Below are positions 5,450-42,959 of a stretch of DNA of 64,000 nt, piece by piece. A program made the translations under genes and the position numbers. The stretch's first letter is position 1. Each line of letters opens with the position of its first letter. The notes below the pieces were generated by a model that saw nothing but the letters and a program-made list of their open reading frames with translations, ran no database searches and was not told the DNA's origin. This DNA comes from Siphonodentalium dalli (lineage: Eukaryota > Mollusca > Scaphopoda > Gadilida > Siphonodentaliidae): positions 39,249,503 through 39,313,502 of the forward strand of contig CP136065.1 in NCBI GenBank assembly GCA_032622095.1. The letters run 5' to 3'.

Positions 5450-6943
5450 TTACAGCTGACTCACATATGATGTGATAGAGTCGTTCGCCCTATTTGAAAC
5501 CATGAAGCACATCCTGGCAGGGTTGACACATATTCCGACGGGACCGGTTACTGATATTACGGAGCGACTGCGTTGTCCGTCACGGCTCAGTTCCATCACT
5601 TGACCACTGCTTCTATTGCAGACGTAAATGTTGTCGCCGAACACACACACGCCAATCGGATAAGACCCGCCACATGATATCGTGCTGAGATGTGACGCGA
5701 GATCCGGGGACAAAACTACCACCTGATGTGCGTCATAATCCGTCACAAACACGGCGTCGAACTCTGGAGATACAGCCACGCCATATGGATACGTGAAGGC
5801 GTATGCGGACTGAGCAATGACGTCACCACTCGTTGTTAGAGCGCGCACGCAACGGTCGATGGGACATGCAACAACTAATCTGTCCCCGACAGATCCGATA
5901 CCTCTACACCCTCCGGATACAGGAAACGATGTTTGATGACTGAGATCTGATGTTTGATACACCGATATCTGAGATTTATGCTTGTGTGATACGTAGATAC
6001 GATCATTAAGATGATAGATACCGGTCGGTTGAGAATTGATCGTGAGAGCGACAGACTTGGTGATTGTACCTTTATGGGTGACCAACATGAGCTTGTTCGG
6101 TTTGAAGGATGCAATTATCATATCCGACTGCGGACTTTTGTTGAGGAACGCCATCACCGACCAAGTTCCTCCGCATGAAAAGTCGAACTCCTTTACTAAT
6201 TGACCGATAGGCTTCTGACAAATAGCAATGCTACACGAATCATTCAAAATCTGCTGTACAGATTCCAAAACGTCTTTATTGATGACGGCCTCGTAATCTA
6301 TCGGCGATAGTATTTCGAAATCGCTGAGCAGACTCTCTGAATTGGATATAGTTTGATGCAGCTTGATCGAACGCTTGTTAAGAACCTCAGCCCTTTTTTG
6401 AGCAGACACTTCTGAAGTAGCCTGTGCGTCTACAGGAACGTCCTCTCCCCCCGGGTTTATTGCCGCCCCTTCACATGAATGTGATTCCGCTTCTTTTTCT
6501 GGTAACAGTTTTACTTGTCTCTCTTTCTTCAGTTCGGACAGAACTTTTACTATCTTATCTACGCTCTTTGCTGATAACTTGTGCTTTGACATTGTATCTC
6601 TAACGCGGTTGAGCGTTTTCTGCTCACAGTCATCCACGATCCGTCGAATCTCAGAAAATAATTTCTGAACCTCCGTCATCATATCCTTCTCTTTTCCGTC
6701 TTGTTTGGTCAGCCAACCGGGAACAGATTCCTGCTTCTTGTTTGCTTCCGAAAATAATTGATCAAGATCTGATTCGAATAGTTGGACATCCGCTTCCATT
6801 TTTGCTATCGCCTTCGACAGATCTTCGAGTTGACATTTTGGATATGCAACTGCATGGCACGAGGCACAGCATGGTACAGCATGGGTGCCACAGAATGAAT
6901 CAATGGGTTGGGGGTGCAGCTCGCAAAATTCGGCGGCTGACAT
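5450..6943 (-). CDS. TRIM-like protein 1: B-box, coiled coil, NHL-type propeller, no RING (497 aa)
   Basis: Seen: an uninterrupted reading frame. Residues 7-37 hold a B-box-like zinc pattern (C7, H10, C18, H21, C26, C29, C37; Tyr34 where a His ligand is usual). Residues about 40-135 are helical and charged (coiled coil). A Gly/Pro/acidic linker (about 150-185) and a second helical stretch (about 190-235) follow. Residues about 245-497 form repeated blades with P-x-G and NDRIYVSH/DNIYVCN-like strands typical of NHL propellers. Known: TRIM-NHL proteins are cytoplasmic; many are RING ubiquitin ligases, others RNA or ligand binders. No RING precedes the B-box, so ligase activity is not supported. 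The Met is chosen because an acceptor (ttttattttcag) ends 7 bases before it, and because the paralogues share this start. Function (innate immune or RNA regulation) is unknown. Downstream lies a 47-bp minisatellite. Confidence 0.88.
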   Translation of the reverse strand: MSAAEFCELHPQPIDSFCGTHAVPCCASCHAVAYPKCQLEDLSKAIAKMEADVQLFESDLDQLFSEANKKQESVPGWLTKQDGKEKDMMTEVQKLFSEIRRIVDDCEQKTLNRVRDTMSKHKLSAKSVDKIVKVLSELKKERQVKLLPEKEAESHSCEGAAINPGGEDVPVDAQATSEVSAQKRAEVLNKRSIKLHQTISNSESLLSDFEILSPIDYEAVINKDVLESVQQILNDSCSIAICQKPIGQLVKEFDFSCGGTWSVMAFLNKSPQSDMIIASFKPNKLMLVTHKGTITKSVALTINSQPTGIYHLNDRIYVSHKHKSQISVYQTSDLSHQTSFPVSGGCRGIGSVGDRLVVACPIDRCVRALTTSGDVIAQSAYAFTYPYGVAVSPEFDAVFVTDYDAHQVVVLSPDLASHLSTISCGGSYPIGVCVFGDNIYVCNRSSGQVMELSRDGQRSRSVISVTGPVGICVNPARMCFMVSNRANDSITSYVSQL

Positions 6944-6949
6944 GATTTA

Positions 6950-6970
6950 TCTGAAAATAAAATCGTTCTA
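6950..6970 (-). promoter_or_regulatory. Splice acceptor of gene 1 leader intron
   Basis: On the minus strand a T-rich tract ends in CAG (complement of 6951-6953). The coding exon begins at about 6950, 7 bases before the ATG. The same site is present at gene 2. The upstream leader exon and its donor were not identified. Confidence 0.7.
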
Positions 6971-8090: not shown

Positions 8091-8516
8091 TAAAAAGTTA
8101 TTTGGGAACAATCCGAATCCAAAATCAACTGTACAACAGTTAAAAAGTCCAACAAGAGCTATAACTCAGATAATATATGTCGGACCGACCACATATTCGG
8201 ACTTAACATGACTGTGTTTCTTGTTGTTAAACCACGTACCAAGTTTTGAGTCGTTCGATAAACTTATACTAAGGTTATCATCCATGCAGAAACCAATACA
8301 TCGACATATTCTAATACAAACAATGTTTATAACTCTACTAAACAAAACGACATATTCTACTACAAACAAGGCCTATAACTCATGCAAAATTTGACTGACC
8401 CCACATTCAAACTGGGCCTGTGTTTGCTAGTAATTAAACCACATATATCATGTTTTGAGTCGACCGAAAATCTAATAGTAAAGTCCTGAATCCAAACTAT
8501 TGAGGGACGGACGAAC

Positions 8517-9385
8517 TAAAAGACTAAATAATAAAAGGCCGTCCGGCCACAGTGTCCCCGGAAAAAAGTGGCTTCATCGGGGGCATCAGCTTTTCTGAAG
8601 AAAAAAATAACAAGGACTCTAAATCCGATACTAAATTTCAGAACAATCCAACCACTGTCCCCTGAAATGGTACACGGTAAACTCTATATATTTATTTGTT
8701 AATTTTACCTTCATTAATGCTGGCTGTGTTATTTGTTACTCATATACCAAATTTGATTCAGATACATATATGATCACACAGACTAAAGTTATCATCCGGA
8801 AACCAGAAATTGACAGGATTCTAAGTCGTAAAAGGGCCATAACTCTCACAAAAATTGGCAGAGCAAACCCATATACGAACCTGATCTGTATTTTGGGCTG
8901 ATTAACTATCATACTAAATTTAATTAACATATGATAACACAAACTAAAGTTATCATCCGGAAACCAGAAATTGACAGGATTCTTAGTCGAAAAAGGGCCA
9001 TAACTATAGCAAAAATTGGCTGAGTGTACCCATATTCGAACTTGACCTGTATTGCGAGCTGATAAACGCATATTCCAAATTTGATAGGATATGATCACAC
9101 AAACTGAAGTTATCATCCGGAAACCAGAAAATTACATGATATTAAGTTAAAAAAAAGGGCCATAACTCTCGCAAAAATGGGCGGAGCAAACCCATATTCG
9201 AACTTAACCTGTATTTTGATCTGATAAACTCACCTATGAAACTTGCTTTTGATCAAATAACCGAAACTAAAGTTATCGTCCGGAAACCATTTCCGGACGG
9301 ACGGATGGACGTCATCGCGGACGGACGGACACCGGCTATTTTAATAGTCCCCCGAAAAAAAAAATTCGGGGAACAACTAAACAAG
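8517..9385. mobile_element. Tandem-module element with terminal hairpin, absent from unit B
   Basis: About 160-bp modules (ttatcatccggaaaccag at 8789, 8950, 9110 and, as a variant, 9273) each carry gggccataactct and acccatattcgaac. A ggacggacgga run follows, then a short hairpin (ccccgaa ... ttcgggg, about 9351-9372). The paralogous stretch near 36510 lacks it. No coding sequence. Possibly a non-autonomous Helitron-like element. Confidence 0.55.
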
Positions 9386-9389
9386 TTTT

Positions 9390-10805
9390 TTTTCAGCGGG
9401 ATTATACAATTTGACCGGAAGTTGGAAAATATTCGCCATTGGGCATGAAACATTTCACTTCAGTTAGTGGTTGAAACATTAAACTTATATACGTTTGGCT
9501 TCAAATTTCCAATATGTATTGCGTTAATGATGAAATTTCCAACTGCGGATAATTTAGGCCACAGTTGGGACGGGGGGGGGGGTCACAGAAACGTCAATCT
9601 CCACATCTGTGGATTTTAAGAGTGTTGCTGCACTTAGGACTGTATGGAAGATTGATAACATAAGTAAAATAGATTCGGCTTTGGTAGGTTTTTATAGTTT
9701 TTAAATGGATACTGTACTCAAATATTGTTGTTGGTTTCTACTCTTCTCCGTATAATAAGATAACCAGATTTCCATTATTTGACTGTCGGCTGAGTACGAA
9801 GTAATCATGGTACAGATGGCTGATAAGCCGGAATGCAAAAAATAGTACGCTTGTAGTCGATGTATTTTGTACAGTTTTCAGGCATATGTATCAAATAAAT
9901 ATTATTTCACTCAAATGTGATATTAATCTTGTGAAACTTCATTTGTTAGCTTACCAACCAGCTTCTAGGGGATATTCGGTTAACCAAAATGAGTAAACAT
10001 TAGTCCAAAAATACATGTCAAGTTAATGATGGTTTTGTTGCTTATTCGATAGTAATCATACGGAATTGCATCAAACCAGCCCAAACATATTGATATGTGC
10101 CAAGGGTCCACCATATGTCGATAAATAATTGAGGGATATCAATAAAAACCAAGCACAGTGGAATGGAAGGGAATGTGCGACGTATTGTGTATTTAGGTGT
10201 GTGTTGATGTGTAGATGAATGAAATTAACTATTTTAATATGATTTGGCCGACATATTTCAATAGATATTAGGACCGGACGTGGATTGATGACCAGATTTC
10301 TGACTTTTATGGTCAAAGTATTGCTTGGTAATTGTTAGAGTTGCTTGGTATATAGTTTAGCAATCAATTCCTTATATGGACGTTGATTTGCATTGCACAT
10401 GTGCAGAATTCATATATTTATTTTGTTAATCCAAACAAAGCTTATATTGTTTTCCTTCAATTTTCACATTTAAATATCGCAGATATATTTTTCTTTCGAC
10501 ATTTTGTTAATCCAAACAAAGCTTTTATTCCTTCATTAATTTAATTTAGAATGGCAATGTGATGTTATTGTAATTGTGCAAATAGTACAAGAAAATGCAA
10601 TTTCTTCGCTTATTATACGTCTCTGTTTTGTCTTGGTTTCAGTGTTTACATGCATTTCCATCTCGAATGTTGTTGCTTCTTTATTGATAACTAGTTCATT
10701 TTTACATTTCGTTGATTTAATGTCTGTGGTTTTTTTATTTCGGAGATGTACCTCATTGCAAGTTGAAGTTATAATGCAACGACTTCACGGTTCACGCGTT
10801 GACTC
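9390..10805. other. Shared intergenic block, no gene recognised
   Basis: Similar to 36550-38100. Contains a poly(G) run near 9571-9580. Open frames such as 10576-10905 are not conserved in the second copy. Confidence 0.6.
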
Positions 10806-10822
10806 TTTTGTATATACTATAG

Positions 10823-13800
10823 CAGGGCCACCAAACTCGGTCACGTGGTTACTATTTTTAGTGTACAAATGGCCGACGGATTTATCACCTCAAAGTAAGT
10901 ACTGAGTTCTGTATAACTGTGTTGTTCAATTGACCACTAGTAGACCCACCGGAGAGAAGGCGGAGTAAAAAATTAAAATGGAAGGATTAGATAAATTTCC
11001 ATTAGATGTTTCGAGTTCTTCGTGATGCCTTCCCAACTAGTTAAACTTGCCTATTGTCGACGTATAGCAAGTTGCGATAGCGCTCAAACAATTTCACTTT
11101 AATCGTCAATACAGTCGCTAAACGGAGCTAAACTATTCATTTAAATAGTGCACGAGAAACAAAATGTCTCTGGAATATTTTTAATGTGCACTTGTTGGCA
11201 AATTGTTAACAATTGCTTGTCATAAACCTAGTTATATAAAAAAGGTAACAATATAATAGCAGATATAATGAGTTGACTATTTTCTTACTTGAGAATGATT
11301 TTTATATCTTCCACAGGTTATATATGTCGCAATGACAGAGTCATCACTACCAAATTCTCAAAAGAAGTGTGCATATGGTGTCCTACGAACAATCTACTCA
11401 GGAAAGTGTGGGGAAGCGAATAAATGGAACGAAACGTTGCCAGTTTCATACTCATGCAGGATATCAAACGATCGACAGTTCTTTACTCAACTGATTAAAG
11501 TATCTTATTAAGTTACACAATCATTATTTATTATAATTTCTAGATTATATGCACAGGGATGTGTTTATTATTAACAACACGCATAACTATTTATATGCGT
11601 CTGAAAGAACCCAAATGTGTGCATATAGTCATACCCATTTAATGTATTGCATGGGGACTATTTTTTATATATTTTGATGTACACATGCGTGCACATCTGA
11701 TGAAAGCTTCATTCCAATTCTAATACCGATACTATCCAAGTGATAATCAAATGTCAGAAGACTGAAATATCAGTACATTATTGATGTACATATAATACAC
11801 TTATCCGTGCAAATGCGATGCTTGTCCATCAGCGACTATTAAGAGGATATTACTTGGTTGGTTTGATATTAGGCCCCATATCATCCCGAGGTAACCTCAT
11901 ATTAGCCTGAGACCGAAGGCCGAAGACTGAAACGAGGTTATCGATGGTTGATATCAGGACTATACTATCAAACCAACCAATTAATATCCTAATTATTAAT
12001 TAGATTGCCTCTTAGTGCCTTAGTAACTGACAACTCTTTCATATGAGTGACGTCACCAAATCGATATCTACACGTTATTTAGTAGTGTAGTAGATAAATT
12101 ATCGCATGTCGTGAAAACTATATTACTCGGATGTGTGATAAAATGATATTACTCGGTTTAAGGGCAAATTGAAGCGATATTCACATAGTTCGATAACAGG
12201 CCGTTCTGGACAAAAATGTCATATCTAATTAATAAGGCAAAGTATTATCAGGTTTGGCGAATCCTACGTTCAACTATTATAGTTATATTCAAGTGGTATT
12301 GTTAAATTTGTACATCGAATGCACCTCCAGAACTTTGACCTGTAGCACCTAAACCGCGGAATGGGGAGGGGCTGCACGAATTCAATATAGCCGCGACTCA
12401 GTGATCTCGCTTATACACAGTCATGTTGCAATCTCAACAATACGGCAGCAAATGAACGTTATCCATATACAATTCTGTTCAGCCTTTTGCGCAAGCTTTT
12501 TTATTCAATAATCGCACAACTAAGCCTTTCTAAGTGACATTACAGATGGTCTATCTCTGTGTAAACATGTGTTATATAGTCACCGGGGTATAAAATATTA
12601 GATATGATCAAAGATCCCTGTCAAGAAATTCTTCTATCGATTAATATTGATTATATTTCGAATATGTTCTGGACTAAAAACGTGTGGTCGTTTAGCTAAC
12701 GAACAACAGTGGTTATACTGTTAACAGAGATCAGAAATTTTATTGTGTAATTTTGTCACAAATAAACGTTAATTAGACTGATTATCGCTTATAACTATGC
12801 AATAAAACAATACAAACATTAAATCTGGGTCAGTTGACGTTCGGAGCATAGCTATGGGAACACCCTAAATATATCTATCGATATGCGGTATCACCCGGTA
12901 TGGCCTGAATGGTCCGTTCTAAAATAGAACAATAAAGTGTCCCATCAAATCATCTCATTTTATAATAAATTATTCGAAATAAAATCAATATTAATTGATA
13001 GAAGCGTTTTCGGACACTGGTCTTCAATTAATATATATTATTTTATACCAATACAATTGCAATATCTATACCAATGCGAGTGCTAATTGACTAAATGCTA
13101 AATGCTAAATGACATTTGGCACCATGATTAATCATTCAAATGCACGGAGAAACAAACATGCATGGTACCGGTACCATCTTCTGCGACGCTGTTTGGTTCA
13201 TTTTTGTAAAATACGTTATGTTCGTTATGCACCTTCTATCAAATTCACGAAACGGCGATATCCACATTCAACTCTTATCGATAATTATAACTATACTTAT
13301 TCATTTCAGGATGTGCCAGACCTGGTTACAGAGTTTCGAAATATAAATTCATTTGGTCCAAAATTATATCAAAGTTCTGATATACTTACGAATACCCGAA
13401 TGCCAAATAGTTAGAATGATATCATTGAACAAGTTTCCCCCTAACTTTGACTTAGTTGGCTTTTTTAGGAGTCCGCAGATATCTTTGACGGTGTAGACAA
13501 TATATTCGTCATATTAACAATAACATCTATCCCTTGCCTCTTTCTTTTTTTTAGGACGTCAGTGTTTTTCTGCGTTATCGGTGTAGGGTGCGGTGAAATT
13601 ATACACGCCCTTAATCTCTTTCTGCGAGGTGTGCATATGGCAGTCCTGATCTTTATGCATACTAGTTTACATCTTTTAGTTCTGTTGAGCGACAGGTTTG
13701 ACTGTATGTTCCTTGGATGCATTTCAGACTATATTCTAGAGGAAATTTTCGCCTAAGAGGCCCGAAATGTCAATTATTACCGCCACCATCGGACGGTTTT

Positions 13801-15072
13801 CGTTTGCCCGACTTTTCGCCTTGGATTACAGGAATTGAATTTATCATTGGTGGGAAATGTTCAGATACCAAGTTCAACAAACGACCTATGGTAATTTTGT
13901 TATTGAATAAAATGGTGTGGAATGTATATGTGAACGAACGTGCAACAATTGTAACGCTGATCTGTGGTGAGGAGTCAAATGTACCGTTGGGTCGTGGTGA
14001 TATAAGAGGCAGCAGCAGCCAGATACTTCAGACCGAATATGTGTTGATATTGCACCGATAGTTTGAGTTTCCGCCATTCTTTATAGTATAATATAATTAT
14101 TTCGTTTGAGATATATAGATTAGAATATGTTCTTAAAGTTTCGATTGTGACGTGGACTTTTCCACCTATTGGGAAACGTGGGGTATTAGGTGGATAACTA
14201 CAACTAGAGGGGTACAATTGGAGTATTTACACTTGTGAATTATTATCTGCGAGGTGAAATTGGAAATTACAACTTTGACCATCTCCCCTTGCCGAAAAAA
14301 GACCAACAATCAGTGCCTCGAAAAACAAGTATCGGTCTCGATTGTGCTCCATAACAATTAAGTTTTTTCTGGACACAATAAGGTTTGGATTGCATGATAA
14401 TACTGTTTCACAAATTATTTTTGTATATAACGGGGAATTCGTTCCTTTGTTTCTATTGTAAGTAGATATAATAGATCGTAAAAATGTATCTGTTCCATTT
14501 GTAGGCTATCCCTGTTATATTGTCCGATAGTAGAATCGTGCATTGCTCGTAGGCGTTCTCGGCTTTGTTCCAAATGAATAAAGCTAGTTGATATTATATT
14601 ACTGTGTGGGCGTTATCATGCCTCGTATGTTGGCCGAGCGTTACCAATAGTGCATTTGAAGGCACAGAGAGGGGATAGATGCGCAAATTTGCAAGCTATA
14701 TTTAGAAAATAATGCAGGAATGTTTCTCAATTTTTGTCTATTATACCAGATGGACAAATGCTCTAAATAAAGCTCAGATGCTTCTTACTGGTGAAATTGG
14801 GATAAATGTGTTGGCGTTATCAATAAAAGCCCCAGCGCGAAAATGGGTGAAAAGTAAGAGATTGAAATTTGTGCGAGGCATCAGCTTTATACGGGACTAT
14901 ATTTCTATAAGCGGCTTTGTTCAATGGACTCAAGAAATATATAGTTCTTCTTTCGCTATTATGGCACAACAAGAATATTTGTTGCTTTCGAGAAATAAGC
15001 ATCGGAAGCGAGAATTAGCTATTTGTTATGAGTGTTTCGTTACCCATCACGTGACCGAGTTTAGTGGCCCTG
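10823..15072. mobile_element. 4.25-kb DNA element with 25-bp terminal inverted repeats
   Basis: The left end CAGGGCCACCAAACTCGG and the right end, read inverted as CAGGGCCACTAAACTCGG, match over 25 bases with one mismatch. The flanks show tatag on both sides (10818-10822, 15073-15077), a possible 5-bp target duplication. The corresponding place in unit B (about 38100-38270) lacks it. Internal frames (13109-13414, 13717-14061, 14712-15077) show no transposase motif that I recognise, so it is probably non-autonomous or decayed. Confidence 0.75.
11844..11990. mobile_element. Foldback MITE nested in the 4.25-kb element
   Basis: The arms ttggttggtttgata (about 11854-11868) and tatcaaaccaaccaa (about 11966-11980) pair over about 25 bases including the outer ggatatta/taatatcc. 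The interior has a second inverted pair, gaggtaacctc and gaggttatc. Confidence 0.6.
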
Positions 15073-15079
15073 TATAGAC

Positions 15080-17250
15080 AGTCAAAATACAAAAAAGTTA
15101 AAACGAAAATAGGCCTATTTAGCTGTAACATGTACAGCGGACAGCACACTTTTGTATTTGAGCGTGTGAATCGGCCATTTATTCTATATCCAGACATTGT
15201 ATGCTGGTGAAATGTGCTAACGTTATACATCTTACCAACTGAGCCACCATGGGTTCCAATCGGTCATATAGTCTATATTAGGTGAGGGGGTTGATTTCCA
15301 TGCCCTTCAACCTCAACAACTGAGTACTGGCCTTATATATGAAGTCAACACTGTCTGTGTGGATCTATTCAATTTGCGATGTGACTGGTGTGTGAACTGG
15401 GATAGCGTCCTGATTTTGATTGTGCCATGTGTTTTAAATTCTTGTTCCCCACTCAAGTCAGAAAGACTCTGCGCCGCATTACAGATCATATTATTGACAA
15501 TATGCAAATTTCAAAAAAACTCAACTCTCATAAGAATTTGAATTATCTTTGTGTTGGAATTATCCAGGTGAGTCATGGCAGGACAAAACTCCAGGATACA
15601 AGGTTGGAATTGTTGGTTTTTAAATTTTTGGGAGACACCACCCCGGGAATGCATATATATTGTCCATTCAGATTTCGGACACTCACCCCTCCAACCCACG
15701 TTTGTTTTCCTATGGCAATTTGGGGACCCCCCCCCCCCCCCCCCCACAAGTTTTATGAAAAGCCGTGAAAATAGCAGGATAAGACAGACGGAGGGTGTGA
15801 AATGTTTTAAATGACCATCCGGTAAGCTTAATGAAAAGTACCAGACATCTCAGTAAATCATAAAACACTCATTAACTAAACTTGTCAATAAGATGCAGAA
15901 TCCATACAAGATCTGATTCTAATTGTTCGTCCATTGAAAGTCTTAGCGACTATTTAGATATAAATATAGGATTAAGAAAAAGATATACCATTGAACCTCA
16001 GTCATGTGGTCTTATGTGCTCCCACATTAAAAGCTTCCCAAAATATTAATGATCTCACAATTCATTCACTATTGCATATCAAAGTTTCAATATATCTAGA
16101 TTATGCTGAATTGGGAGAAAAAACCATTAGCTGAAGCACAAACATTCTTGTTAGATATCCACACACTATTGAGAGATTAAATTAGGATAGTTGCATGGTG
16201 ATAAAATGTTCACTACTATCAGTAGACGAATTTCCTCTTTTAAGAGAAACAACAATCCATTTGGGGGGGGGGGGGGGGGTGGGGGGGGTTGAATGTCATT
16301 GTCGTTGGTGACCTATTCCAGTTACCGTCTGTTTAATCTAATTTGGTTTTACAAATACTATTCTTTGGGAATTATTCACGCCATTGTTTTTCACAACAAA
16401 TAGGAGGCAATCTGAAGATATTTTTGTTGCCAGTATTCTCAATAGAGCAGGCTATGGCCTCTTGCTGGACCTCAATTTTAAAGTCAAGAACGCTCCACAA
16501 CCATGGTAACATCACTATTATTCTTATCAATCCAAATTTTCAAATACATGATCACAAATCTTTATGTCAACAGTACAAACCACCACAGGCTAAAACCAAA
16601 GCACATTTATAACCATATAGTTCTGAAATTTTAGAACCTTAATTCCAATAACGTCTAGAAGGAACATATCACATTTTAACTTCAAATTAGTTCGTTCTCC
16701 AACCAAATGTTAAACGTAAAATTAACATACAGGCTATACAGTGTCATTATAACTGCCATTATATTGATAGAGGGTCGTTATTAACAACAGTACCCATTCC
16801 TCAGTTAACTATAACATGGACCCCATTAACATACCGTTCTATCTATGTGTATCAATATATCACCCCTATGACCATGGGCATGATTGTGTCAATTTTGTCT
16901 TTGCAAAATGTAACTTTGATTTAAATTTACCAAACACAATAAAATATAGCTCAATAATTCTATGTCAAATAGTTCATGGGTGATCTGACGCATGCATCTT
17001 AGTTTTCTTGTATTAAATGTTGTATTATTATGCATAACAGTCCCAGATGCACATTAATTTTATTATATATATTATATTTTATTATATATATATTCTACTT
17101 TATTATATATATATTCTATTTTATTATATAGCCAGTGAGTGGCTTGAGTTCACGACCGGTATCAACTTAGTTTGTTTACACCAGGTGTGCTACGCGTCAC
17201 GTGGGAGTTGTGCAATCCGCTTATGTCAATTAAATTGATTACGTCTTGTA
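15080..17250. other. Shared intergenic block, no gene recognised
   Basis: Similar to 38270-40480. Includes homopolymer runs: poly(C) near 15727-15745 and poly(G) near 16262-16288. A TA-rich microsatellite (about 17055-17140) is unique to this copy. Confidence 0.6.
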
Positions 17251-17339
17251 CATGAAATTTCGTAATTTAATTTCGTAACTCAACTTAAGGCTGAAGCCAT
17301 AAATTAAATTTATAACTTAAATGGAGTCATAAATTATAT

Positions 17340-19760: not shown

Positions 19761-19764
19761 CTAA

Positions 19765-20055
19765 CATCGGTTAGAAGTTAAAAACACCTGACCCAACGTC
19801 GGTTGAAAATTAAATGCCTGACACATCATCTGTTAGAAATTAAACGCCTGACACATCATCGGTTAGAAATTAAACGCCTGACACATCATCGGTTAGAAAT
19901 TAAATGCCTGACACATCATCTGTTAGAAATTAAACGCCTGACACATCATCGGTTAGAAATTAAACACCTGACCCAGCGTTGGTTGGAAATCAAACGCCTG
20001 GCACAACATATGTTAGAAATTAAACGCCTGAGACAACATCTTTGGAAATTAAACG
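19765..20055. repeat. 30-bp minisatellite, about 9-10 copies
   Basis: The unit contains gttagaaattaaacgcctga and cacatcatc. Because 30 is a multiple of 3, open frames run through it on both strands; these are not taken as genes. Confidence 0.9.
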
Positions 20056-21345: not shown

Positions 21346-21423
21346 CTTGTATATTATTGTATGGTATTACCTCAACTCATTCGAAATCACAGGGTGTGTT
21401 ATTAGCTGCCATATAACATTAAT

Positions 21424-22339
21424 ATGAAAGTGTCAATGACACTGTAGCTCAACTTAGGTATGGGAATAATTTAATGGTTGACAGTAAATGGAGGAATAGG
21501 AAAGGTGCTAATTGAATTGTCTAAGTAAGACTAGATGTACATGTCAATATCAACATTCATGACAGGTTTCATAATGATCGGATCAGGGATGTGGTGATTA
21601 TGGTGTGCCAAAGGATTTATTGATGCAAAGAGAAAATTCTAAAATAGTCACCGGCAGCCATGTTTTTTTTCCGAATTACCCCAAAATGACCTGTTCCCAT
21701 CTACAGCCTTTACAAATCTCATAATGATCTGATCAAATGTACGACCTGTAGCCCATGCCAAAGGATTTAGTCATGCAAAGAGTAAAATCCAAGATGGCTG
21801 CTGGCGGCCATATTTTTTGGCCGAACGACCCCAAAATTACTCAATCCCATCTACATGTCATTGTTAACATCCATGACAAATTTCATGAAGTTCTGACCAA
21901 GGCTACAACCTGTAGCCCGCGCCAAAGAATTTAGTCATGCAAAGAGTAAAATCCAAGACGGCTGCTGGCGGCCATGTTTTTTGGCTGAACGATCCCGAAA
22001 TCACTCATTCCCATCTAAGTGTCAATATTAACATCCATGACAAATTTCATGATGATCAGACGAACAGTACGACCTGTAGCCCGCGCCAATGGATTGAATT
22101 TTGAAATCCAAGATGGCCACCAGTGGCCATGTTTTTTGGCCGAATGACCCCAAAATGACTCGTTCCCTCTACATGTCAATGTCAACATTCATGACAAATT
22201 TCATAAAGATCAGACCAAAGGTACGACCTGTAGCCCGTGCCAAAGGAAATTGTTGACGGACACACGACACACGCACACACGGACGACGGACGCCAAACCA
22301 TGGCAATAGCTCAAACTTACAAAGTAAGTTGAGCTAACT
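21424..22339. mobile_element. 'AAGATGGC' module element with 12-bp inverted ends (unit B)
   Basis: Same element at the paralogous site: inverted ends at 21445-21456 and 22325-22336. It was carried along by the segmental duplication. Confidence 0.7.
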
Positions 22340-22469
22340 AGGGGATGTAGAATTCATTTATTCACAAAACTAGAAACCAACCCATATAGAAAGCACCATG
22401 GTTGTAGTGCCATTTTTATTCATTCTGCGCACAGCATAACATATTAAACAGTTAGATGTATATTAAATT

Positions 22470-25000
22470 ATTAGATTTGATTTTAAGATAACATGTTAAC
22501 CTGAACGTTTACAGAAGACATCGTCCACTCAAATGAATTATTCCCCTTTATATATTATCGATATTAGATCGTGATTATTACCGGGAATTTATTGAAATTG
22601 GCGTACAGTGTGACTTTAAAGGCTGTAGATCGGTATATCATCTATGTACCGGTATCTTAAGGCGGTAGATCGGTATATCATCTCTGTATCGGTATCTTAA
22701 TGCTGTAGATCGGTATATCATCTCTGTATCGGTATCTTAATGCTGTAGATCGGTATATCATCTCTGTATCGGTATCTTAAGGCTGTAGATCGGTATGTCA
22801 TCTCTGTACCGGTATCTTAAGGCTGCAGATCGGTATATCATCTCTGTACCGGTATCTTAAGGCTGTATATCGGTATATCATATCTGTAGCGGTATCTTAA
22901 GGCTGTAGATCGGTATATCATATCTGTACCATATCTTAAGGCTGCAGATCGGTATGTCATCTCTGTACCGGTATCTTAAGGCTGCAGATCGGTATATCAT
23001 CTCTGTACCGGTATCTTAAGGCTGTATGTCGGTATATCATCTCTTTACCGGTATCTTAAGGCTGTATTTCGGTATATCATCTCTGTACCGGTATCTTAAG
23101 GCTGTAGATCGGTATGCCATCTCTGTACCGGTATCTTAAGGCTGCAGATCGGTATATCATCTCTGTACCGGTATCTTAAGGCTGTATGTCGGTATATCAT
23201 CTCTGTACCGGTATCTTAAGGCTGTATGTCGGTATATCATCTCTGTACCGATATCTTAAGCTATATGTCGGTATATCATCTCTGTACCGAGAGCTTAAGG
23301 CTATATGTCGGTATATCATCTATTTACCGGTATCTTAAGGTTGTATATCGGTATGTCATCTCTGTACCGGTATCTTAAGGCTGCAGATCGGTATATAATC
23401 TCTGTACCGGTATCTTAAGGCTGTATGTCGGTATATCATCTCTGTACCGGTATATTAAGGCTGTATGTCGGTATATCATCTCTTTACCGGTATCTTAAGG
23501 CTGTATATCGGTATATCATCTCTGTACCGGTATCTTAAGGCTGTATATCGTTATATCATCTCTGTACCGGTATCTTAAGGCTGCAGATCGGTATATCATC
23601 TCTGTACCGGTATCTTAAGGCTGTAGATCGGTATATCATCTCTGTACCGGTATCTTAAGGCTGTAGATCGGTATATCATCTCTGTACCGATATCTTAAGG
23701 CTGTATATCGTTATATCATATCTGTACCGGTATCTTAAGGCGGTATATCGTTATATCATCTCTGTACCGGTATCTTAAGGCTGTAGATCGGTTAATCATC
23801 TCTGTACCGGTATCTTATATTAGCTCTTATCCATCCTTCCAATAATTTAACCTTAAACGATCATTGACCATTAAGAAAGTATATATTTCAACAACATGTA
23901 CTGCGTGTTTGAGACAAAAAACGTTTCTCCGAATAACCATTAAATATATATATGACAGTCACACGAGTCATACCTAAATATAGAGTCATGCCTAAATATA
24001 GAGTCGCACGATGACGAAACGAACCCGAAACAGATTGTGGAGCAGCTTGTCGGGGAATTACCCAGAATCTATTTTGTACTTCCGTAAATACGTTGCATAT
24101 TCTACGCCGTTATGTCTATACATGTACGCCTGATATCGCGGGTGGATATATACATGTATATTAAATGTATATGAATAGTAATCGACCGCCAAATATACAC
24201 AACACACTCAATTCATCGCCATCAAAGTCGTGCTGTTATATAAACCTTAGTGAGGACAAAGCGAATTACAATATAACGTACGCTGACCTTATTGCGTACT
24301 CGAATGGCTAATTGTGCAATATAATTTTCTCTCTAAACGACAGCTGCGCATCAAATACCTCGTAAACATGCATTCCAAGTATCCCCTAATAGGGATGGAA
24401 CTCTCTGAAATAGATTTTATTGTCTGACACTTACGTGTTTTAGTTTTATGTTTGAAAGTATTCACAGAAGGTATACACTCAGTTGATCTAAGTATAATAG
24501 CTATATGAGATAACTCTACCTGGAGTTTGGGTATGAGTATTCACACCAATCGATTGTATAACACAATGAGTATTCAGATAAAAATACTTTAAAACTTTAT
24601 GGATCCGGGGATGGAACGCTCGTACCTTTTTCCGGTAAACTTAATCGGATTGATGCGATGAACAGTTTTGACTGGTTAAAGTCCATGTATTCCCGAGGGA
24701 TGGCTAAGCTCTCCCCACCATGCAGTAATCGCTGTCGGCTGAACTAAACAGATCAATTTCATAAAACAAATTTGTGTACGGCTATACCAAATAAACACCA
24801 ATAGATTATCATCACATTTTATTGGAAAATTGAGGCGCAGGATTTTATGTTTTATCATTTATATACTGCATGTGCCCCATTCAGTTTCCGTCCTACATAT
24901 AAACGAATACATACATTGTGCTAAGTTGAAGAAATATATGCATCAGTACAATGTAATAGTGTGTAAATAAACAGGGATCATTCAAGTGTTTGTATATTTG
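22470..25000. other. Shared block, unit B, containing the 30-copy array
   Basis: Nearly identical to 1126-3130 outside the minisatellite. No gene recognised. Confidence 0.75.
22621..23818. repeat. 40-bp minisatellite, about 30 copies
   Basis: Same unit as at 1268-1907 but nearly twice as long, at the same place in unit B. A few 38-39 bp units occur, for example near 22930 and 23262. Confidence 0.93.
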
Positions 25001-25084
25001 TCGCCTGCGTGGCTATATGGGTATATATATGTATATAAAGAAAGTTATGGACAAGTTATTTCAGGTGAAGCTAGTTCATACAAA

Positions 25085-25575
25085 AGTACAACAAGTAATG
25101 TCCCTAATTGTGCCCAAGGATGCTATAATATATACATGCATATGATATTATAGTAATACACAACACATATTAATGTAGTATGAACTTTAATATAACCCTA
25201 AGTTATAATGTTATATGGTGCTCAAGGATGCTATAATTTACATGCATGTGGTATAATAGTAATATAAAACAAATATTAATGTAGTATGAACTTTAATATA
25301 ACCCTAAGTTATAATGTTATAAGGTTATCATGGGACTAGTGATGTCTCTAATGGTGCTCAATGATGCTATAATCTACACGCATGTGATATAATAGTAATA
25401 TACAACACATATTAATGTAGTATGACCTTTAATATAACCCTATGTTATAATGTTATAAGGTTATCATGGGACTAGTGATGTCTGTTATGGTGCTCAAGGA
25501 TGCTATAATCTACACGCATGTGATATAATAGTAATATACAACACATATTAATGTAGTATGAACTTTAATATAACA
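25085..25575. repeat. Tandem repeat of about 107-137 bp, unit B
   Basis: Same four-copy structure as 3228-3695 with few differences. Confidence 0.85.
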
Positions 25576-25652
25576 CCATAGTATCTTATGCGCCACAGGC
25601 GCTGGAGACTAATGCTACTGCCCACATAAATAATATGTATAAGGTATCTATT

Positions 25653-27098
25653 TTACTATGGAGCGGGTTAATAATGGTAATAAGAACTGTCGATCTATTT
25701 TACTATAAAGCGGGTTAATAATGGTAATAAGAAACAGTCGATCTATTTTACTATAGAGCGGGTTAATAATGGTAATAAGAACAGTCGATCTATCTTACTA
25801 TAGAGCGGGTTAATAATGGTAATAAGAACAGTCGATATATTTTACTATAGAGCGGGTTAATAATGGTAATAAGAAACAGTCGATCTATTTTACTATAGAG
25901 CGGGTTAATAATGGTAATAAGAACAGTCGATCTATTTTACTATAGAGCGGGTTAATAATGGTAATAAGAAACAGTCGATCTATTTTACTTGAAGCGGGTT
26001 AATAATGGTAATAAGAACAGTCGATCTATTTTACTATTGAGCGGGTTAATAATGGTAATAAGAACAGTCGATCTATTTTACTATATAGCGGGTTAATAAT
26101 GGTAATAAGAAATGGTAATAAGAAACAGTCGATCTATTTTACATTAGAGCGGGTTAATAATGGTAATAAGAACAATCGATCTATTTTACTATAGAGCGGG
26201 TTAATAATGGTAATAAGAACAGTCGATCTATTTTACTATAGAGCGGGTTAATAATGGTAATAAGAACAGTCGATCTATTTTACTATAGAGCGGGTTAATA
26301 ATGGTAATAAGAACAGTCGATATATTTTACTATAGAGCGGGTTAATAATGGTAATAAGAAACAGTCGATATATTTTACTATAGAGCGGGTTAATAATGGT
26401 AATAAGAACAGTCGATCTATTTTACTATAGAGCGGGTTAATAATGGTAATAAGAACAGTCGATCTATTTTACTATAGAGCGGGTTAATAATGGTAATAAG
26501 AACTGTCTATCTATTTTACTATAGAGCGGGTTAATAACGGTAATAAGAACAGTCGATATATTTTACTATAGAGCGGGTAAATAATGGTAATAAGAACAGT
26601 CGATCTATTTTACTATGGAGCGGGTTAATAATGGTAATAAGAAACAGTCGATCTATTTTACTATATAGAGCGGGTTAATAATGGTAATAAGAACAGTCGA
26701 TATATTTTACTATAGAGCGGGTTAATAATGGTAATAAGAACAGTCGATCTATTTTACTATAGAGCGGGTTAATAATGGTAACAATAATCAGTCGATCTGT
26801 TTTACTATAGAGCGGGTTAATAATGGTAATAAGAACAGTCGATCTATTTTACTATGCAGCGGGTTAATAATGGTAATAATAAACAGTCGATCTATTTTAC
26901 TATAGAGCGGGTTAATAATGGTAACAATAATCAGTCGATCTGTTTTACTATAGAGCGGGTTAATAATGGTAATAAGAACAGTCGATATATTTTACTATAG
27001 AGCGGGTTAATAATGGTAATAAGAACAGTCGATCTATTTTACTATGCAGCGGGTTAATAATGGTAATAATAAACAGTCGATCTATTTTACTATAGAGC
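25653..27098. repeat. 47-bp minisatellite, left part, about 31 copies
   Basis: Same unit as at 3776-4957. One irregular unit near 26105 has an internal duplication (aatggtaataagaa twice). It is interrupted at 27099 by a transposon. Confidence 0.93.
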
Positions 27099-28652
27099 CA
27101 GGGGGGGGGGTCGGAAAAAAATTCCAGGCACGTATGATGGGGTGGGTGGGTGTCTCTTGGGTCCAAAAAACAGTTTTTTCCATATGCCAAAATGTTTTTC
27201 CGTTCCTGCTATTGAGTCTTATTTTGATGTATTTTGCACAGAAACAGGTCATATATAGTTAATACTAATGCTATACTACATATAGAGCTTATCAGAAGTT
27301 GGATCAGTTGCACAATGGCCAACAATAACCCAAATTCAACTTGATAGAACTAGACACTGCGCTATTGGAAAAATAAAATTTAATCAGGATTCCATCTACT
27401 GATACAGCAAAATAAGATTAACTATGCAGAACTCAGCTGAAAATAAGCAATAAAATGAAAGCACACTTGACCATATGTGACTTGGAAATAAAGATATAAT
27501 AAATAATGGAATAAAATAGACTTTTGACAACGTAAAACAAAATCTTAACAAATAAATTGAAGGCCAGCCGGGCCAGCTTGAACAATTTCACATTGTTTTC
27601 CATGTTAATGTGGATCAGCTTGTAATGTTAATCACAGTAACGAAGATTTTATCGTCACTGATATCGTGAGCAAAAAAGAAGTGAAATTGGGCTATCCATC
27701 CATATTATTCCCAATTATTACGAAGCCTATTACTTCAGGCAGTGGCTACCAGCCTGCCATTACACGCTATAACATGTTTCCTTAGTTCTGGTTTCTGAGA
27801 TGCCCCAAGAAGAGTCACGCATGTATATCATGGTTATGTTTGGTATTAGCATTATTCTTCAAACTGGGATGAACTGGGATGAACAGTTGTATTTCCACAT
27901 GTTTTGATAAACAATTTTATTCCAGCAATACAGTAATGCCCTAATTAAATGACTACATAACCACAGCAGAATAATGGGTAATTTTTCAGGATTTAGTCGG
28001 AAATTAAAATTAAATTACCCATTATTCTGCTGTGGTTATGGAGTCGATTAATTAGGGCATTACTGTATATCACATAGCAAATATCAAAATATCAAATAAT
28101 CTGAAATTTTTTGTACCGGTACCATGTAAATGCGACTAAATCCTGAAAAATTACCCATTATTCTGCTGTGGTTATGGAGTCGTTTAATTAGGGCATTACT
28201 GTATTGCTGGAATCAAATTGTTTAGCAAAACATGTGGAAATACAATGGTAAATGAATGTTAATAAAAACCTTGGCACTCTGCCTATATATCCCTAGAAAT
28301 GTGATTATGTTGACACATTTCTTGATTAATGACACTTATATGATAAATTCAAATAGTATAGTTATCTCATTATGCACTGTTCTATTCAAATATAGCGCAA
28401 TAAATTATGATAATGCAGGATAATCAGCTATTTGGTTGCTCAATTGATAATTTTTCTCAAATTTAAGGGGGGTGGGTGTCCAAAACTGACCGGAAAAAAC
28501 TTCCTGAAACGGAAAAAAGGGTGGGTGTCCACAATTGACTGGAAAAAAAGGCCGGAAACGGAAGAAATTGGGTGGGTGGGTCCCCTGTGGCCGGAAAAAA
28601 TTAAAATGATCATACGTGCCTGGAAATTTTTCCGACCCCCCCCCCCCCCCTG
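27099..28652. mobile_element. 1.55-kb hAT-like non-autonomous transposon inserted in the 47-bp array
   Basis: The ends are inverted copies: CAGGGGGGGGGG, TCGGAAAAA and TTCCAGGCACGTATGAT on the left; ATCATACGTGCCTGGAA ... CCCCCCTG on the right. The 7-bp sequence atagagc lies on both sides (27092-27098, 28653-28659), although an uninterrupted repeat would have it once, so it is a target duplication. CAGGG ends and a 7-8 bp duplication suggest the hAT superfamily. No transposase frame is seen. Subterminal ggtgggtgtc repeats are present. Confidence 0.75.
27887..28247. mobile_element. Foldback element nested in the hAT-like element
   Basis: The arms at 27887-27999 and 28136-28247 are inverted near-copies (tattccagcaatacagtaat; ttactgtattgctgg). 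A third partial arm at 28011-28067 (attattctgctgtggttatg) has the same orientation as the right arm. Confidence 0.75.
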
Positions 28653-29743
28653 ATAGAGCGGGTTAATAATGGTAATAAGAAACAGTCGATCTATTTTACT
28701 ATAGAGCGAGTTAATAATGGTAATAAGAAACAGTCGATCTATTTTACTATGGAGCGGGTTAATACTGGTAATAAGAACAGTCGATCTATTTTACTATATA
28801 GCGAGTTACTAATGGTAATAAGAAACAGTCGATCTATTTTACTATAGAGCGAGTTAATAATGGTAATAAGAAACAGTCGATATATGTTACTATAGAGCGG
28901 GTTAATAATCGTAATAAGAACAGTCGATCTATTTTACTATGGAGCGGGTTAATAATGTTAATATGAAACAGTCGATATATTTTATATTAGAGCGGGTTAA
29001 TAATGGTAATAAGAAACAGTCGATCTATTTTACATTAGAGCGGGTTAATAACGGTAATAAGAACAGTCGATCTATTTAACATGGAGCGGGTTAATAATGG
29101 TAATAAGAACAGTCGATCTATTTTACTACAGAGCGGGTTAGTAATGGTAATAAGAAACAGTCGATATATTTTACATGGAGCGGGTTAATAATGGTAATAA
29201 GAAACAGTCGATCTATTTTACATTAGAGCGGGTTAATAATGGTAATAAGAACAGTCGATCTATTTTACCATGGAGCGGGTTAATAATGGTAATAAGAACA
29301 GTCGATCTATTTTACTATAGAGCGGGTTAATAATGGTAATAAGAACAGTCGATATATTTTACTATAGAGCGGGTTAATAATGGTAATAAGAACAGTCGAT
29401 CTATTTTACTATGGAGCGGGTTATTAATGGTAATACGAACAGTCGATCTATTTTACTATAGAGCGGGTTAATAATGGTAATAAGAACAGTCGATCTATTT
29501 TACTATAGAGCGGGTTAATAATGGTAATAAGAACAGTCGATCTATTTTACTATAGAGCGGGTTAATAATGGTAATAAGAACAGTCGATCTATTGTACTAT
29601 GGAGCGGGTTAATAATGGTAATAAGAAACAGTCGATCTATTTTACTATAGAGCGGGTTAATAATGGTAATAAGAAACAGTCGATCTATTTTACTATGGAG
29701 CGGGTTAATAATGGTAATAAGAACAGTCGATCTATTTTACATG
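28653..29743. repeat. 47-bp minisatellite, right part, about 23 copies
   Basis: Continuation of 25653-27098 beyond the transposon. Units here more often carry the extra A (gaaacagtc) and gagcgagtt variants near the insertion. Confidence 0.93.
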
Positions 29744-30239
29744 GACCTGCTGGTCATAGTTGTTTTACAAATGTTGTAGCGTGCATTCCTTTTCACATGT
29801 AACCAATGCAAATGCATTAATTCCCTTCAATGGCCTAAAATATATTAAACCAGTGCATCGTATAATATGCCCCCTCGCCCGGTCGTGATATTTATGCGAG
29901 GCCGCACGTGGAATATCAAAATGAAAGGACGCTATGTTATTCAGAGCCACATCGATGAGTTCAGTAGGCAGTACTGTAGTCCGTATATAGGTATTGATAC
30001 CTCTCCCCAAAAAAACGACGTATAAACATAATATAAACGAGCCACAACATCTCACTTAGGATAGGACCATCACACACATTCCGCGTGCTTGTTTACTTTG
30101 TTTGAATGAATTATCGAGTTCTTGATGTTCATAATGTGTCCTACATCCATCGAACAAGAACCACCACACGGTAAAGTTCTGAGATGTGTTGCGAGATCCG
30201 GGGATTTTCGTCTAATGTACAGGAAGTTCCCTCGACATG
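29744..30239 (-). other. 3' flank of gene 2
   Basis: Almost identical to 4958-5449 (only a few differences over the last 200 bases), while the neighbouring coding exon differs much more. Confidence 0.5.
30144..30208 (-). pseudogene. Propeller-coding fragment in the 3' flank of gene 2
   Basis: Nearly identical to the fragment downstream of gene 1 and similar to coding DNA around 30435-30500. It sits outside the reading frame, after the stop codon, and is a remnant of a partial tail duplication. Confidence 0.6.
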
Positions 30240-31730
30240 TTACAGCTGACCCACGTATGATGTGATAGAGTCTTTCGCCCTATTTGAAACCATGAAGCAC
30301 ATCCTGGCAGGGTTGATACATATTCCGAGGGGTCTGGTTACTGATATTACTGAGCGACTACGTTGTCCATCACGGCTCAGTTCCATCACTTGACCACTGT
30401 CGTTGCAGACGTAAATGCTGTCGCCGAACACACACACGCCCCTCGGATGAGACCCGCAACACGGTATCGTGCTGAGATGAGTCGCGAGATCCGGTGACAA
30501 CATTACCACATTATATGCGTTATAATCCGTAACAAACACGGCGTCGGCCTCCGGAGATACAGCCACGCCCCATGGATTATTGAAGGCGTATGTCGACTGA
30601 GCAATGACGTCACCACTCGTCGTTAGAGTACGCACGCAATGATCACCGGGACATGTAACGACTAATCTGTCCCCGACGGATCCGATACCTCTACACCCTC
30701 CGGATACAGTGAACGATGTTTGATGACTGAGATCTGATGTTTGATAAACCGATATCTGAGATTTTAGATTGTGTGATACGTAGATACGATCATTAAGATG
30801 ATAGATACCATACGGCCAAGAATTGATCGTGAGAGCGACAGACTTGGTGATTGTACCTTTATGGGTGACCAACATGAGCTTGTTCGGTTTGTGGGATGCA
30901 ATAATCATATCCGACTGCGGACTTTTGTTGAGGAACGCCATCACCGACCAAGATCCTCCGCATGAAAAGTCGAATTCCTTTACTAATTGAACGATAGGCT
31001 TCTGACAAATAGCAATACGACACGAATCATTCAAAATTGTCTCTACAGAATCAAAAACTCCTTTGTTGATGACGGCCTTGTAATCTATCGGTGATAACTT
31101 TTCGAAATCTCTGAGCAGACTCTTTGAATTGGATATAGTTTGATGGAGCTTGACTGAGCGCTCATTCAAAGATTTAACCCTTTGTGCAGCAGATACTTCT
31201 GAAGTAGCCTGTGCGTCGACAGGAACGTCCTCTCCTCCCGGGGTTATTGCCGCCCCTTCACATGAACGTGATTCCGCCTCTTTTTCTGATAACAATTCTA
31301 CTTGTCTCTCTTTCTTAAGTTCGGACAGAACGTTTACTATCTTATCCACGCTCTTTGCTGATAACTTGTGCTCTGACATTGCATCTCTAACGCGATTGAG
31401 CGTTTTCTGCTCGCAATCATCAACGATCCGTCGAATCTCAGAAAATAAATTCTGAACCTCCGTCACCATATCCATCTCTCTTCCGTCCTGTTTGGTCAGC
31501 CAACCGGGAACAGATTCCTGCTTCTTGTTTGCTTCCGAGAATAATTTATCAAGATCTGATTCGAATTGTTGGACATCCGCTTCCATCTTTGCTATCACTT
31601 TTGACAGATCTTCGAGTTGACATTTTGGATATGCAACTGCATGGCATGAGGCACAGCAAGGTATAATGTGGGTGTCACAGAATGAGTCAATGGGTTGGGG
31701 GTGCAGTTCACAAAATTCTGCAGCCGACAT
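30240..31730 (-). CDS. TRIM-like protein 2: B-box, coiled coil, NHL-type propeller, no RING (496 aa)
   Basis: This is a paralogue of the gene at 5450-6943, in the same orientation and with the same domain order. A hand alignment gives about 68 differences over 497 positions (about 86% identical) and one single-residue deletion in the last blades (CNRSSG versus CNDSG). The zinc ligands are kept (C7, H10, C18, H21, C26, C29, C37), with Tyr34 again. Differences in the propeller fall beside the P-x-G motifs and in strand-connecting loops: QPTG/WPYG, YPYG/NPWG, YPIG/HPRG, DYDAHQ/DYNAYN, SHKHKSQ/SHNLKSQ. The coiled-coil half changes less. The frame is open throughout and begins 7 bases after the same acceptor, so the copy looks functional. 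The downstream 47-bp array is about twice as long as at gene 1 and is split by a transposon. Confidence 0.88.
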   Translation of the reverse strand: MSAAEFCELHPQPIDSFCDTHIIPCCASCHAVAYPKCQLEDLSKVIAKMEADVQQFESDLDKLFSEANKKQESVPGWLTKQDGREMDMVTEVQNLFSEIRRIVDDCEQKTLNRVRDAMSEHKLSAKSVDKIVNVLSELKKERQVELLSEKEAESRSCEGAAITPGGEDVPVDAQATSEVSAAQRVKSLNERSVKLHQTISNSKSLLRDFEKLSPIDYKAVINKGVFDSVETILNDSCRIAICQKPIVQLVKEFDFSCGGSWSVMAFLNKSPQSDMIIASHKPNKLMLVTHKGTITKSVALTINSWPYGIYHLNDRIYVSHNLKSQISVYQTSDLSHQTSFTVSGGCRGIGSVGDRLVVTCPGDHCVRTLTTSGDVIAQSTYAFNNPWGVAVSPEADAVFVTDYNAYNVVMLSPDLATHLSTIPCCGSHPRGVCVFGDSIYVCNDSGQVMELSRDGQRSRSVISVTRPLGICINPARMCFMVSNRAKDSITSYVGQL

Positions 31731-42955: not shown

Positions 42956-42959
42956 CTTT

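Follow-up and report, generated by a model that had tools for sequence, protein, structure and literature searches.

Variation concentrated on one propeller face in three tandem TRIM-NHL-like genes of the scaphopod Siphonodentalium dalli

Introduction

TRIM proteins of class VII (subfamily C), the TRIM-NHL proteins such as LIN41/TRIM71, Brat, TRIM2 and TRIM3, belong to TRIM group 1. In excerpts of one comparison, group 1 TRIMs are conserved between human and mouse, with a mean Ka/Ks of 0.13 vs 0.29 for the SPRY group (PMC2533329); taken together with excerpts of two further papers (PMC2657112, PMC3137616), the TRIM families that diversify are B30.2/SPRY forms, and other TRIM classes are generally conserved in vertebrates. 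The selected sites described for bat TRIM56, at residues 1, 6 and 10, lie outside its NHL-like part (PMC10145180, in excerpt). No selection within NHL domains is reported in the excerpts of PMC10145180, PMC3137616 and PMC10445537, and those of PMC8382680, PMC13093298, PMC4759782 and PMC4346834 contain nothing relevant on TRIM or NHL; among titles and opening abstract lines of the top-ranked open-licence papers on NHL and selection or on invertebrate TRIM expansion, no report of diversifying selection in NHL propellers was found.

As described in part of PMC1805685, selection in the het-d and het-e genes of the fungus Podospora anserina acts strongly on four codons of each WD40 repeat, of which the D-A loop and the b-c turn hold two apiece. 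These positions are all located on the upper platform, and the D-A pair flanks a conserved residue. In oyster, according to excerpts of PMC9892467, a parasite-tolerance module includes 79 TRIM transcripts, those of them that are also differentially expressed being mainly TRIM2- or TRIM3-like.

Results

Three tandem open reading frames with TRIM-NHL-like architecture

The window, that is, the whole 64,000-nucleotide stretch of S. dalli DNA analysed, contains three intact tandem open reading frames, which like all features described below are on the minus strand: gene 1 (5450–6943, 497 aa), gene 2 (30240–31730, 496 aa) and gene 3 (55963–57465, 500 aa). The genes and peptides quoted by the first-pass annotation are correct. 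Each frame combines a B-box-like finger, a helical region and an NHL propeller, an architecture based on Pfam and AF2 for gene 1, on Pfam and alignment for gene 2, and on alignment and an AF2 model for gene 3. At the protein level gene 1 is 86% identical to gene 2, whose blade 5 B-C turn is one residue shorter, and 68% identical to gene 3; dS between genes 1 and 2 is about 0.2 (NG86). The window has no tRNA or Rfam match, and one scan each of viral contigs and genome contigs, with two peptide patterns each, revealed no relatives.

The B-box-like zinc finger of gene 1 (aa 7–37; 6833–6925), recognized by alignment and a sub-threshold Pfam match, contains C7, H10, C18, H21, C26, C29 and C37, which are invariant across the three genes and, judging from sequence, are presumably zinc ligands. 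Its zf-B_box score is 17.1 bits in gene 1 and 15.3 bits in gene 2, both under the cut-off of 24.1, and the family is not listed for gene 3. Pfam detects neither RING, a defining element of RBCC-type TRIMs, nor NACHT in any of the three frames. A splice-acceptor-like TTTTATTTTCAG (6951–6962), which may be used as an acceptor, ends 7 nt upstream of the ATG of gene 1, and similar sequences also precede genes 2 and 3; since all three genes have an in-frame TAA at codon −2, an upstream exon could not supply a RING in the same reading frame, provided that the ATG exon starts at the acceptor-like site.

The finger is followed by a helical, coiled-coil-like region and linker (aa 38–237 of gene 1; 6233–6832), for which AF2 predicts long helices with either gene 1 or gene 3 as query, at a pLDDT mostly below 50. 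The propeller of gene 1 (aa 250–494; 5462–6196), modelled with a pLDDT mostly of 80–95 that decreases at both ends, consists of six blades of four strands each; with gene 3 as query (about aa 251–497; 55975–56715), AF2 again yields six four-stranded blades, the 24 strands following the same order, and the gene 2 propeller (aa 250–493; 30252–30983) was delimited by alignment to gene 1 and its model. Within each propeller the blades are unlike one another. The Pfam NHL cut-off of 20 is passed by genes 1 (23.9 bits) and 2 but missed by gene 3 (13.4 bits); further Pfam families, for example Vgb_lyase, appear below their own cut-offs. Foldseek ranks the NHL domains of TRIM2, LIN41 and TRIM71 first to third, TRIM3 sixth and Brat ninth, other propellers also being listed.

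Partial propeller copies are found 3' of every gene. Those flanking gene 1 (5366–5413; 16 aa, part of a longer tblastn match running across the gene as well, E 4e-4) and gene 2 (30157–30204; 16–21 aa, E 0.001–0.006) are short, and the one flanking gene 3 (55683–55925; E 4e-10 to 1e-13) is longer but broken, spanning the end of blade 4 to blade 6 with an internal stop.

Differences cluster in the loops of one face

The first-pass annotation placed the propeller differences between genes 1 and 2 next to P-x-G motifs and in connecting loops. Using a hand mask of 60 residues that comprises the D-A and B-C loops of one propeller face, this distribution was confirmed, with differences at 20/59 loop positions vs 12/187 others (Fisher 5.7e-7); the corresponding counts are 34/60 vs 46/187 for genes 1 and 3, and 37/59 vs 48/187 for genes 2 and 3. 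As had been proposed, these loops are also where gene 3 varies: 12 of the 14 propeller positions that differ among all three genes (gaps excluded) belong to the mask. With loops assigned by DSSP on the AF2 model, genes 1 and 2 differ at 17/56 residues of the top loops and 2/48 of the bottom loops (p=0.00063); the strands, described in the first-pass annotation as unchanged, are nearly so, with 12 of 140 strand residues differing.

By NG86 counts for genes 1 and 2, positions 5931–6240 are, as stated previously, mostly amino-acid-altering (11.5 of 18 differences nonsynonymous) and positions 6700–6940, the first 82 codons, mostly silent (14 of 21 synonymous). The contrast in omega (0.49 vs 0.11, neither above 1 by itself) arises partly because dS in the B-box part is high (0.47), and a plain region-wide dN/dS claim for 5931–6240 was rejected on its value of 0.49.

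The most variable positions correspond to LIN41 RNA contacts

A second mask was derived outside these genes: in each blade it takes the four residues that are homologous to RNA contacts in zebrafish LIN41, 24 in all; like all masks used here, it was applied only once the variation had been seen. Fourteen contact residues of DrLIN41 named in section 8 of PMC5908797 all agree with the 6fpt sequence; 13 fall into classes P-1 and P+1 (the residues flanking the P of P-x-G) or D+1 and D+2 (the first and second residues of the B-C turn), and one is at P-2. Genes 1 and 2 differ at 14/23 contact positions vs 18/224 elsewhere (Fisher 7.8e-9), genes 1 and 3 at 18/24 vs 63/224, and genes 2 and 3 at 18/23 vs 68/224. 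Whichever pair is compared, none of 247 slid masks attains the observed number of contact differences, and P-1, P+1, D+1 and D+2 are the most variable between genes 1 and 2 among 30 blade-register columns, some residues of which occur in two columns.

Codon-model tests at the contact positions

In codon models of the three paralogues, to which all selection tests refer, maximum likelihood with a shared dS gives an omega of 3.01 at contact codons vs 0.42 in the rest (LRT against 1, p=1.1e-6), a value that becomes 4.17 (p=6e-6) for genes 1 and 2 alone; the observed statistic is attained in none of 400 simulations at omega=1. Taken singly, classes P+1 and D+2 are significant, and P-1 (p=0.063) and D+1 (p=0.065) miss the 5% level. 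The hand loop mask has an omega of 1.51 (p=0.012) with shared dS and 1.24 (p=0.48) with free dS; the AF2-defined loops reach 1.35 (p=0.083) with shared dS, or 1.14 (p=0.39) when widened by one residue, and with free dS the two p values are 0.50 and 0.81. Omega is neutral-looking at D+3 to D+5 (0.96) and at P-3 and P-2 (0.93), so that drift may explain the rim of the variable surface.

Whether omega formally exceeds 1 hinges on the treatment of dS and on codons with multi-nucleotide changes, which carry the contact-site signal. If the 24 contact codons are allowed a free dS, omega falls to 1.73, a value indistinguishable from 1 (p=0.28); when codons with multi-nucleotide differences are dropped, 7 of the 24 remain, with an omega of 0.88. 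These two results and the widened AF2 loops favour a relaxation of constraint, whereby the upper face would be functionless in these copies and drift neutrally while the fold is retained. Against this, the nonsynonymous p-distance at contact sites between genes 1 and 2 (0.43) is roughly threefold higher than the p-distance of 0.145 measured over 5298 aligned intergenic bases of the same duplication, and the difference persists when codons instead of bases are counted (p=0.0017); in addition, omega stays near 3 under a shared or local dS. On balance we regard relaxed constraint as unlikely.

Clustered change could also have entered the loops through gene conversion, or because they lie in a local hotspot of mutation. 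The duplication of genes 1 and 2 is a mosaic, with about 3% divergence in the 3' flank vs about 10% in the gene bodies, and the partial propeller copies directly 3' of every gene point in the same direction, as does the raised synonymous change within the contact codons themselves (NG86: 4/13.2, 7.4/14.5 and 5.9/13.8 sites in the three pairs), which brings the omega counted at these codons to 1.65, 1.17 and 1.34. The immediate surroundings argue otherwise: codons within two residues of a contact have a pS of only 0.06 between genes 1 and 2, and in the other pairs of 0.36 and 0.31 vs 0.28 and 0.30 farther off. Moreover, a local rate common to codons within two residues was fitted at 0.96 around the contacts and leaves omega at 3.14 (p=0.00027), and in a GENECONV-like test no run of shared silent sites is unusually long (p 0.08, 0.96 and 0.59), making conversion or a hotspot quite improbable.

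The diversifying recognition surface suggested by the first-pass annotation is supported by the confinement of change to a single face and by an omega of about 3 at contact codons under shared dS, but site models without a prior mask miss the 5% level (M2a vs M1a: p=0.072 for the propeller, p=0.50 for the whole gene). Neither of the outcomes it considered contrary, a dN/dS well below 1 at the loops or an even spread of differences, was found.

Discussion

The three genes encode tandemly duplicated RING-less TRIM-NHL-like proteins with a propeller fold, in which amino-acid change is in excess at four LIN41-contact positions per blade on a single face and omega is well below 1 elsewhere. The reading that we favour, with a probability of roughly 0.6, is that the upper propeller face is a recognition surface diversifying by selection while the remaining propeller is steadier. 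A rather unlikely, but stronger, competitor than those weighed above is ordinary functional divergence, in which a few duplicates neo- or subfunctionalise in a developmental or RNA-regulatory role and form no recognition repertoire. LIN41 and Brat regulate by binding RNA, and excerpts of PMC5908797 (section 10) and PMC9634614 describe upper faces that differ strongly among NHL subfamilies; however, those differences lie between old subfamilies and the present ones between tandem copies with a dS of about 0.2 (genes 1 and 2), at positions that differ in all three genes and not in one.

If the upper face is indeed diversifying, the B-box and helical region may oligomerise, gathering several propeller faces, and the face of each copy would bind a ligand that is distinct or changes fast, in all likelihood a pathogen or non-self protein or RNA; the RING-less proteins might then serve as adaptors or decoys, or might team up with RING-bearing TRIMs. 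Non-self recognition is our best guess for the putative function of the face, and any immune role of the three proteins would be equally putative. More tentatively, at somewhat less than even odds, an animal lineage may have converted the propeller of TRIM-NHL proteins, which in other settings is conserved and RNA-regulatory, into a recognition repertoire encoded in the germline by many genes, where a few positions in two loops per blade diversify convergently with fungal HET-D/HET-E to give a programmable propeller face. An NHL propeller diversifying at LIN41 RNA-contact positions would, if true, represent a second evolving TRIM recognition module and provide a defined residue set ready for testing ligand choice.

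Among known systems, the TRIM-NHL proteins share the fold of the three genes by Foldseek. Like them, genes 1 and 2 pass the Pfam NHL threshold and a B-box-like finger and predicted helices precede the propeller, the most varied residues occupying LIN41 RNA-contact positions; they differ in that the three frames lack a RING, the B-box stays under the Pfam cut-off and so does the NHL domain of gene 3. The oyster TRIM2/3-like transcripts, as excerpted, are likened to the three genes by description. With finTRIMs and TRIM5alpha, as presented in excerpts of PMC2657112, they share being duplicated TRIMs whose C-terminal domain diversifies in its loops while the N-terminal part remains similar, but those are vertebrate proteins with B30.2/SPRY instead of NHL, and their RING/B-box region is present and carries some selected sites. 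HET-D and HET-E, according to the excerpted account, are fungal NACHT-WD40 proteins with near-identical repeats under concerted evolution and additional, weaker selected sites, whereas the three genes combine an NHL propeller with mutually unlike blades and no NACHT; furthermore, the fungal b-c pair flanks a conserved residue and D+1 and D+2 are adjacent. Compared at the level of loops, WD40 against NHL, D-A and b-c positions vary in both, and, if the proposed reading is true, fungi and animals would have converged on one and the same pair of loops in each blade.

Three TRIM-NHL-like paralogues

The sole open reading frames of at least 200 amino acids in the whole window are three on the minus strand, g1 (5450-6943), g2 (30240-31730) and g3 (55963-57465), of 497, 496 and 500 codons; read from their sequences they are paralogues, with alignment identities of 86% for g1/g2 and 68% for g1/g3. 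NHL repeats score over the Pfam cut-off in g1 and g2 and under it in g3, and a B-box match in g1 and g2 falls under the cut-off in both. AlphaFold2, supplied with an alignment of the three sequences, models residues 1-249 mostly at low confidence, followed by a clear propeller of six four-stranded blades (g1 model, repeated for g3) whose best three Foldseek matches in the PDB are the NHL domains of TRIM2, LIN41 and TRIM71; TRIM3 (rank 6) and Brat (rank 9) come further down, other propellers lying between. Because no RING is encoded in the g1, g2 or g3 frames, the products are TRIM-NHL-like and not full TRIM proteins by definition. A conserved splice-acceptor-like sequence (6951-6962 for g1, 57473-57484 for g3 and the equivalent place before g2), with its CAG 7 nt upstream of each ATG, suggests a putative 5' untranslated exon; TAA occupies codon -2 in 3/3 genes, so that any possible upstream exon would contribute no coding sequence in that frame.

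Duplication history

The layout of the window resembles a row of three tandem units that share an orientation. An older duplication of units relates 8092-20056 to 36117-43430 through blocks about 75-82% identical (BLAST with gaps), with matching blocks spread over 8092-19624 and 36117-42750, and the 5' flank of g1 and g2 is one of its six measured blocks; the g1-g2 gene dS of 0.205 is of the same order as the intergenic distance (JC 0.162). The 3' flanks of g1 (1-5488) and g2 (21346-30240) were compared in 30 steps of about 150 bases, with part of the tandem arrays omitted; 26 of these steps reach 95% identity or more. These flanks average about 3% divergence, against about 10% for the gene bodies, and were therefore copied or converted more recently, in an event that stops near the gene's 3' end; runs of silent sites within g1, g2 and g3 give no clear conversion signal.

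Partial minus-strand propeller copies begin 35-37 nt past each stop codon, at 5366-5413 and 30157-30204 (both with weak tblastn E-values) and, in a longer, broken form also found by tblastn, at 55683-55925 beside g3; by hand alignment, three of the four blade-5 positions of the last that correspond to LIN41 RNA contacts are unlike all three genes. Long intergenic tandem repeats fill the window and give it a eukaryotic look, among them satellite-like arrays of a 40-mer (1266-1906, 22619-23817), a 47-mer (3765-4953, 25646-27098, 28653-29740) and a 191-mer (58665-59355), two of which are common to the duplicated units.

Variation is concentrated on one propeller face

The first-pass annotation had proposed diversification of propeller loops, quoting peptides that differ between copies, and its peptides and coordinates are borne out for the three frames; codon counts agree with its contrast between mostly replacement changes at 5931-6240 and mostly silent ones at 6700-6940. 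Omega computed over whole regions stays under 1 for each of the seven regions and three pairs examined, with g1-g2 values of 0.10 in the B-box, 0.22 in the helical part and 0.53 in the propeller, and a signal emerges only once the propeller is split by face. Within a hand mask of the D-A and B-C loops of the upper face, drawn after the alignment had been seen, 20/59 positions differ between g1 and g2, versus 12/187 outside. Loops defined from AlphaFold2 strands differ at 17/56 positions on the upper face and 2/48 on the lower (strands, 12/140); the varying part is therefore the loops of one face, not loops in general. Upper-face charge also differs between copies (K+R/D+E of 8/3, 8/3 and 5/6 in the 60-residue mask).

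A mask from outside these genes was derived from the LIN41 residues that the part of Kumari et al. 2018 consulted (PMC5908797) names as contacting RNA, located on the 6fpt sequence found by PDB search. All 14 contacts could be placed relative to P, the P-x-G proline, and D, the residue that ends strand b: P-1 (4), P+1 (2), D+1 (3), D+2 (4) and P-2 (1). The first four classes over six blades give 24 contact positions. Between g1 and g2, 14/23 of these differ (15/24 including a missing residue) versus 18/224 elsewhere, and all 247 slid copies of the mask fall short of the real one, whichever of the three pairs is taken. When the blades are aligned in register, variability between g1 and g2 is highest, among 30 columns, in these four classes, which differ in 3 or 4 of 6 blades versus at most 2 for the rest; the proline and following glycine of P-x-G hardly vary. 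Under our own residue classes, 11 of the 15 g1-g2 contact changes (missing residue included) switch class.

Tests of selection

In a three-taxon, GY94-type codon model written for this analysis (F3x4, neutral-scaled branches), a shared dS gives omega 3.01 at contact codons (likelihood-ratio test against 1, p=1.1e-6, n=3 sequences), 0.42 elsewhere in the propeller and 0.44 N-terminal to it; the g1-g2 pair alone gives 4.17 at contacts, and 400 simulations run with omega=1 never match the observed contact statistic. By class, omega is 2.20 at P-1 (p=0.063), 4.07 at P+1 (0.0014), 2.22 at D+1 (0.065) and 4.13 at D+2 (0.00076); neighbouring positions give 0.96 (D+3 to D+5), 0.93 (P-3 and P-2) and 0.38 (P and P+2). 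A local rate common to contact codons and those within two residues (rate 0.96) leaves omega at 3.14 (p=0.00027). Intergenic sequence belonging to the g1-g2 tandem duplication (six blocks, 5298 aligned bases), chosen as an independent neutral yardstick over the far more similar 3' flank and hence a milder test, has a p-distance of 0.145 (blocks 0.116 to 0.169), versus 0.43 at nonsynonymous sites of contact codons (g1-g2). Counting each codon as one event, the contact excess has p=0.0017, or 0.028 with a neutral rate of 0.2.

Other results weigh against selection. With dS free at contact codons, omega is 1.73 (p=0.28); synonymous change is raised there (4/13.2, 7.4/14.5 and 5.9/13.8 sites in the three pairs), and counted omega is 1.65, 1.17 and 1.34. 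Loop masks under shared dS give 1.51 (hand, p=0.012), 1.35 (AlphaFold2, p=0.083) and 1.14 (AlphaFold2 widened, p=0.39), none of the three being significant with dS free, and site models without a mask are not significant for propeller (p=0.072) or gene (p=0.50). Mutations that change several nucleotides at once could inflate omega: g1 and g2 have 24 codons with multi-nucleotide differences, 11 of them inside the 60-residue mask, and dropping all such codons leaves 7 of 24 contact codons with omega 0.88 (n=3 sequences). Such mutations, however, would not account for the placement of the changes.

A changing face on a conserved scaffold

The three genes thus combine a conserved scaffold with one changing face. 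The helical part and B-box-like finger may make oligomers, and the changing upper face would bind a ligand, RNA or protein, differing from copy to copy. In the portions of the sources consulted, LIN41 and Brat bind RNA on the corresponding propeller face (PMC5908797), and part of the NHL-like domain of TRIM56 is required for viral RNA binding (PMC6623546). Within the retrieved text of open-licence PMC literature on NHL selection and invertebrate TRIM expansion, no description of an NHL propeller with a diversifying face was found; diversifying TRIMs are already known with B30.2 domains (PMC2657112, PMC3137616, in excerpt), as are diversifying propellers in fungi. The closest evolutionary precedent in the literature excerpts is one of the latter, the Podospora NWD family, in which the consulted sections of PMC1805685 place strongly selected codons at 7 and 9 in the D-A loop, flanking a conserved residue, and at 25 and 27 in the b-c turn, flanking another.
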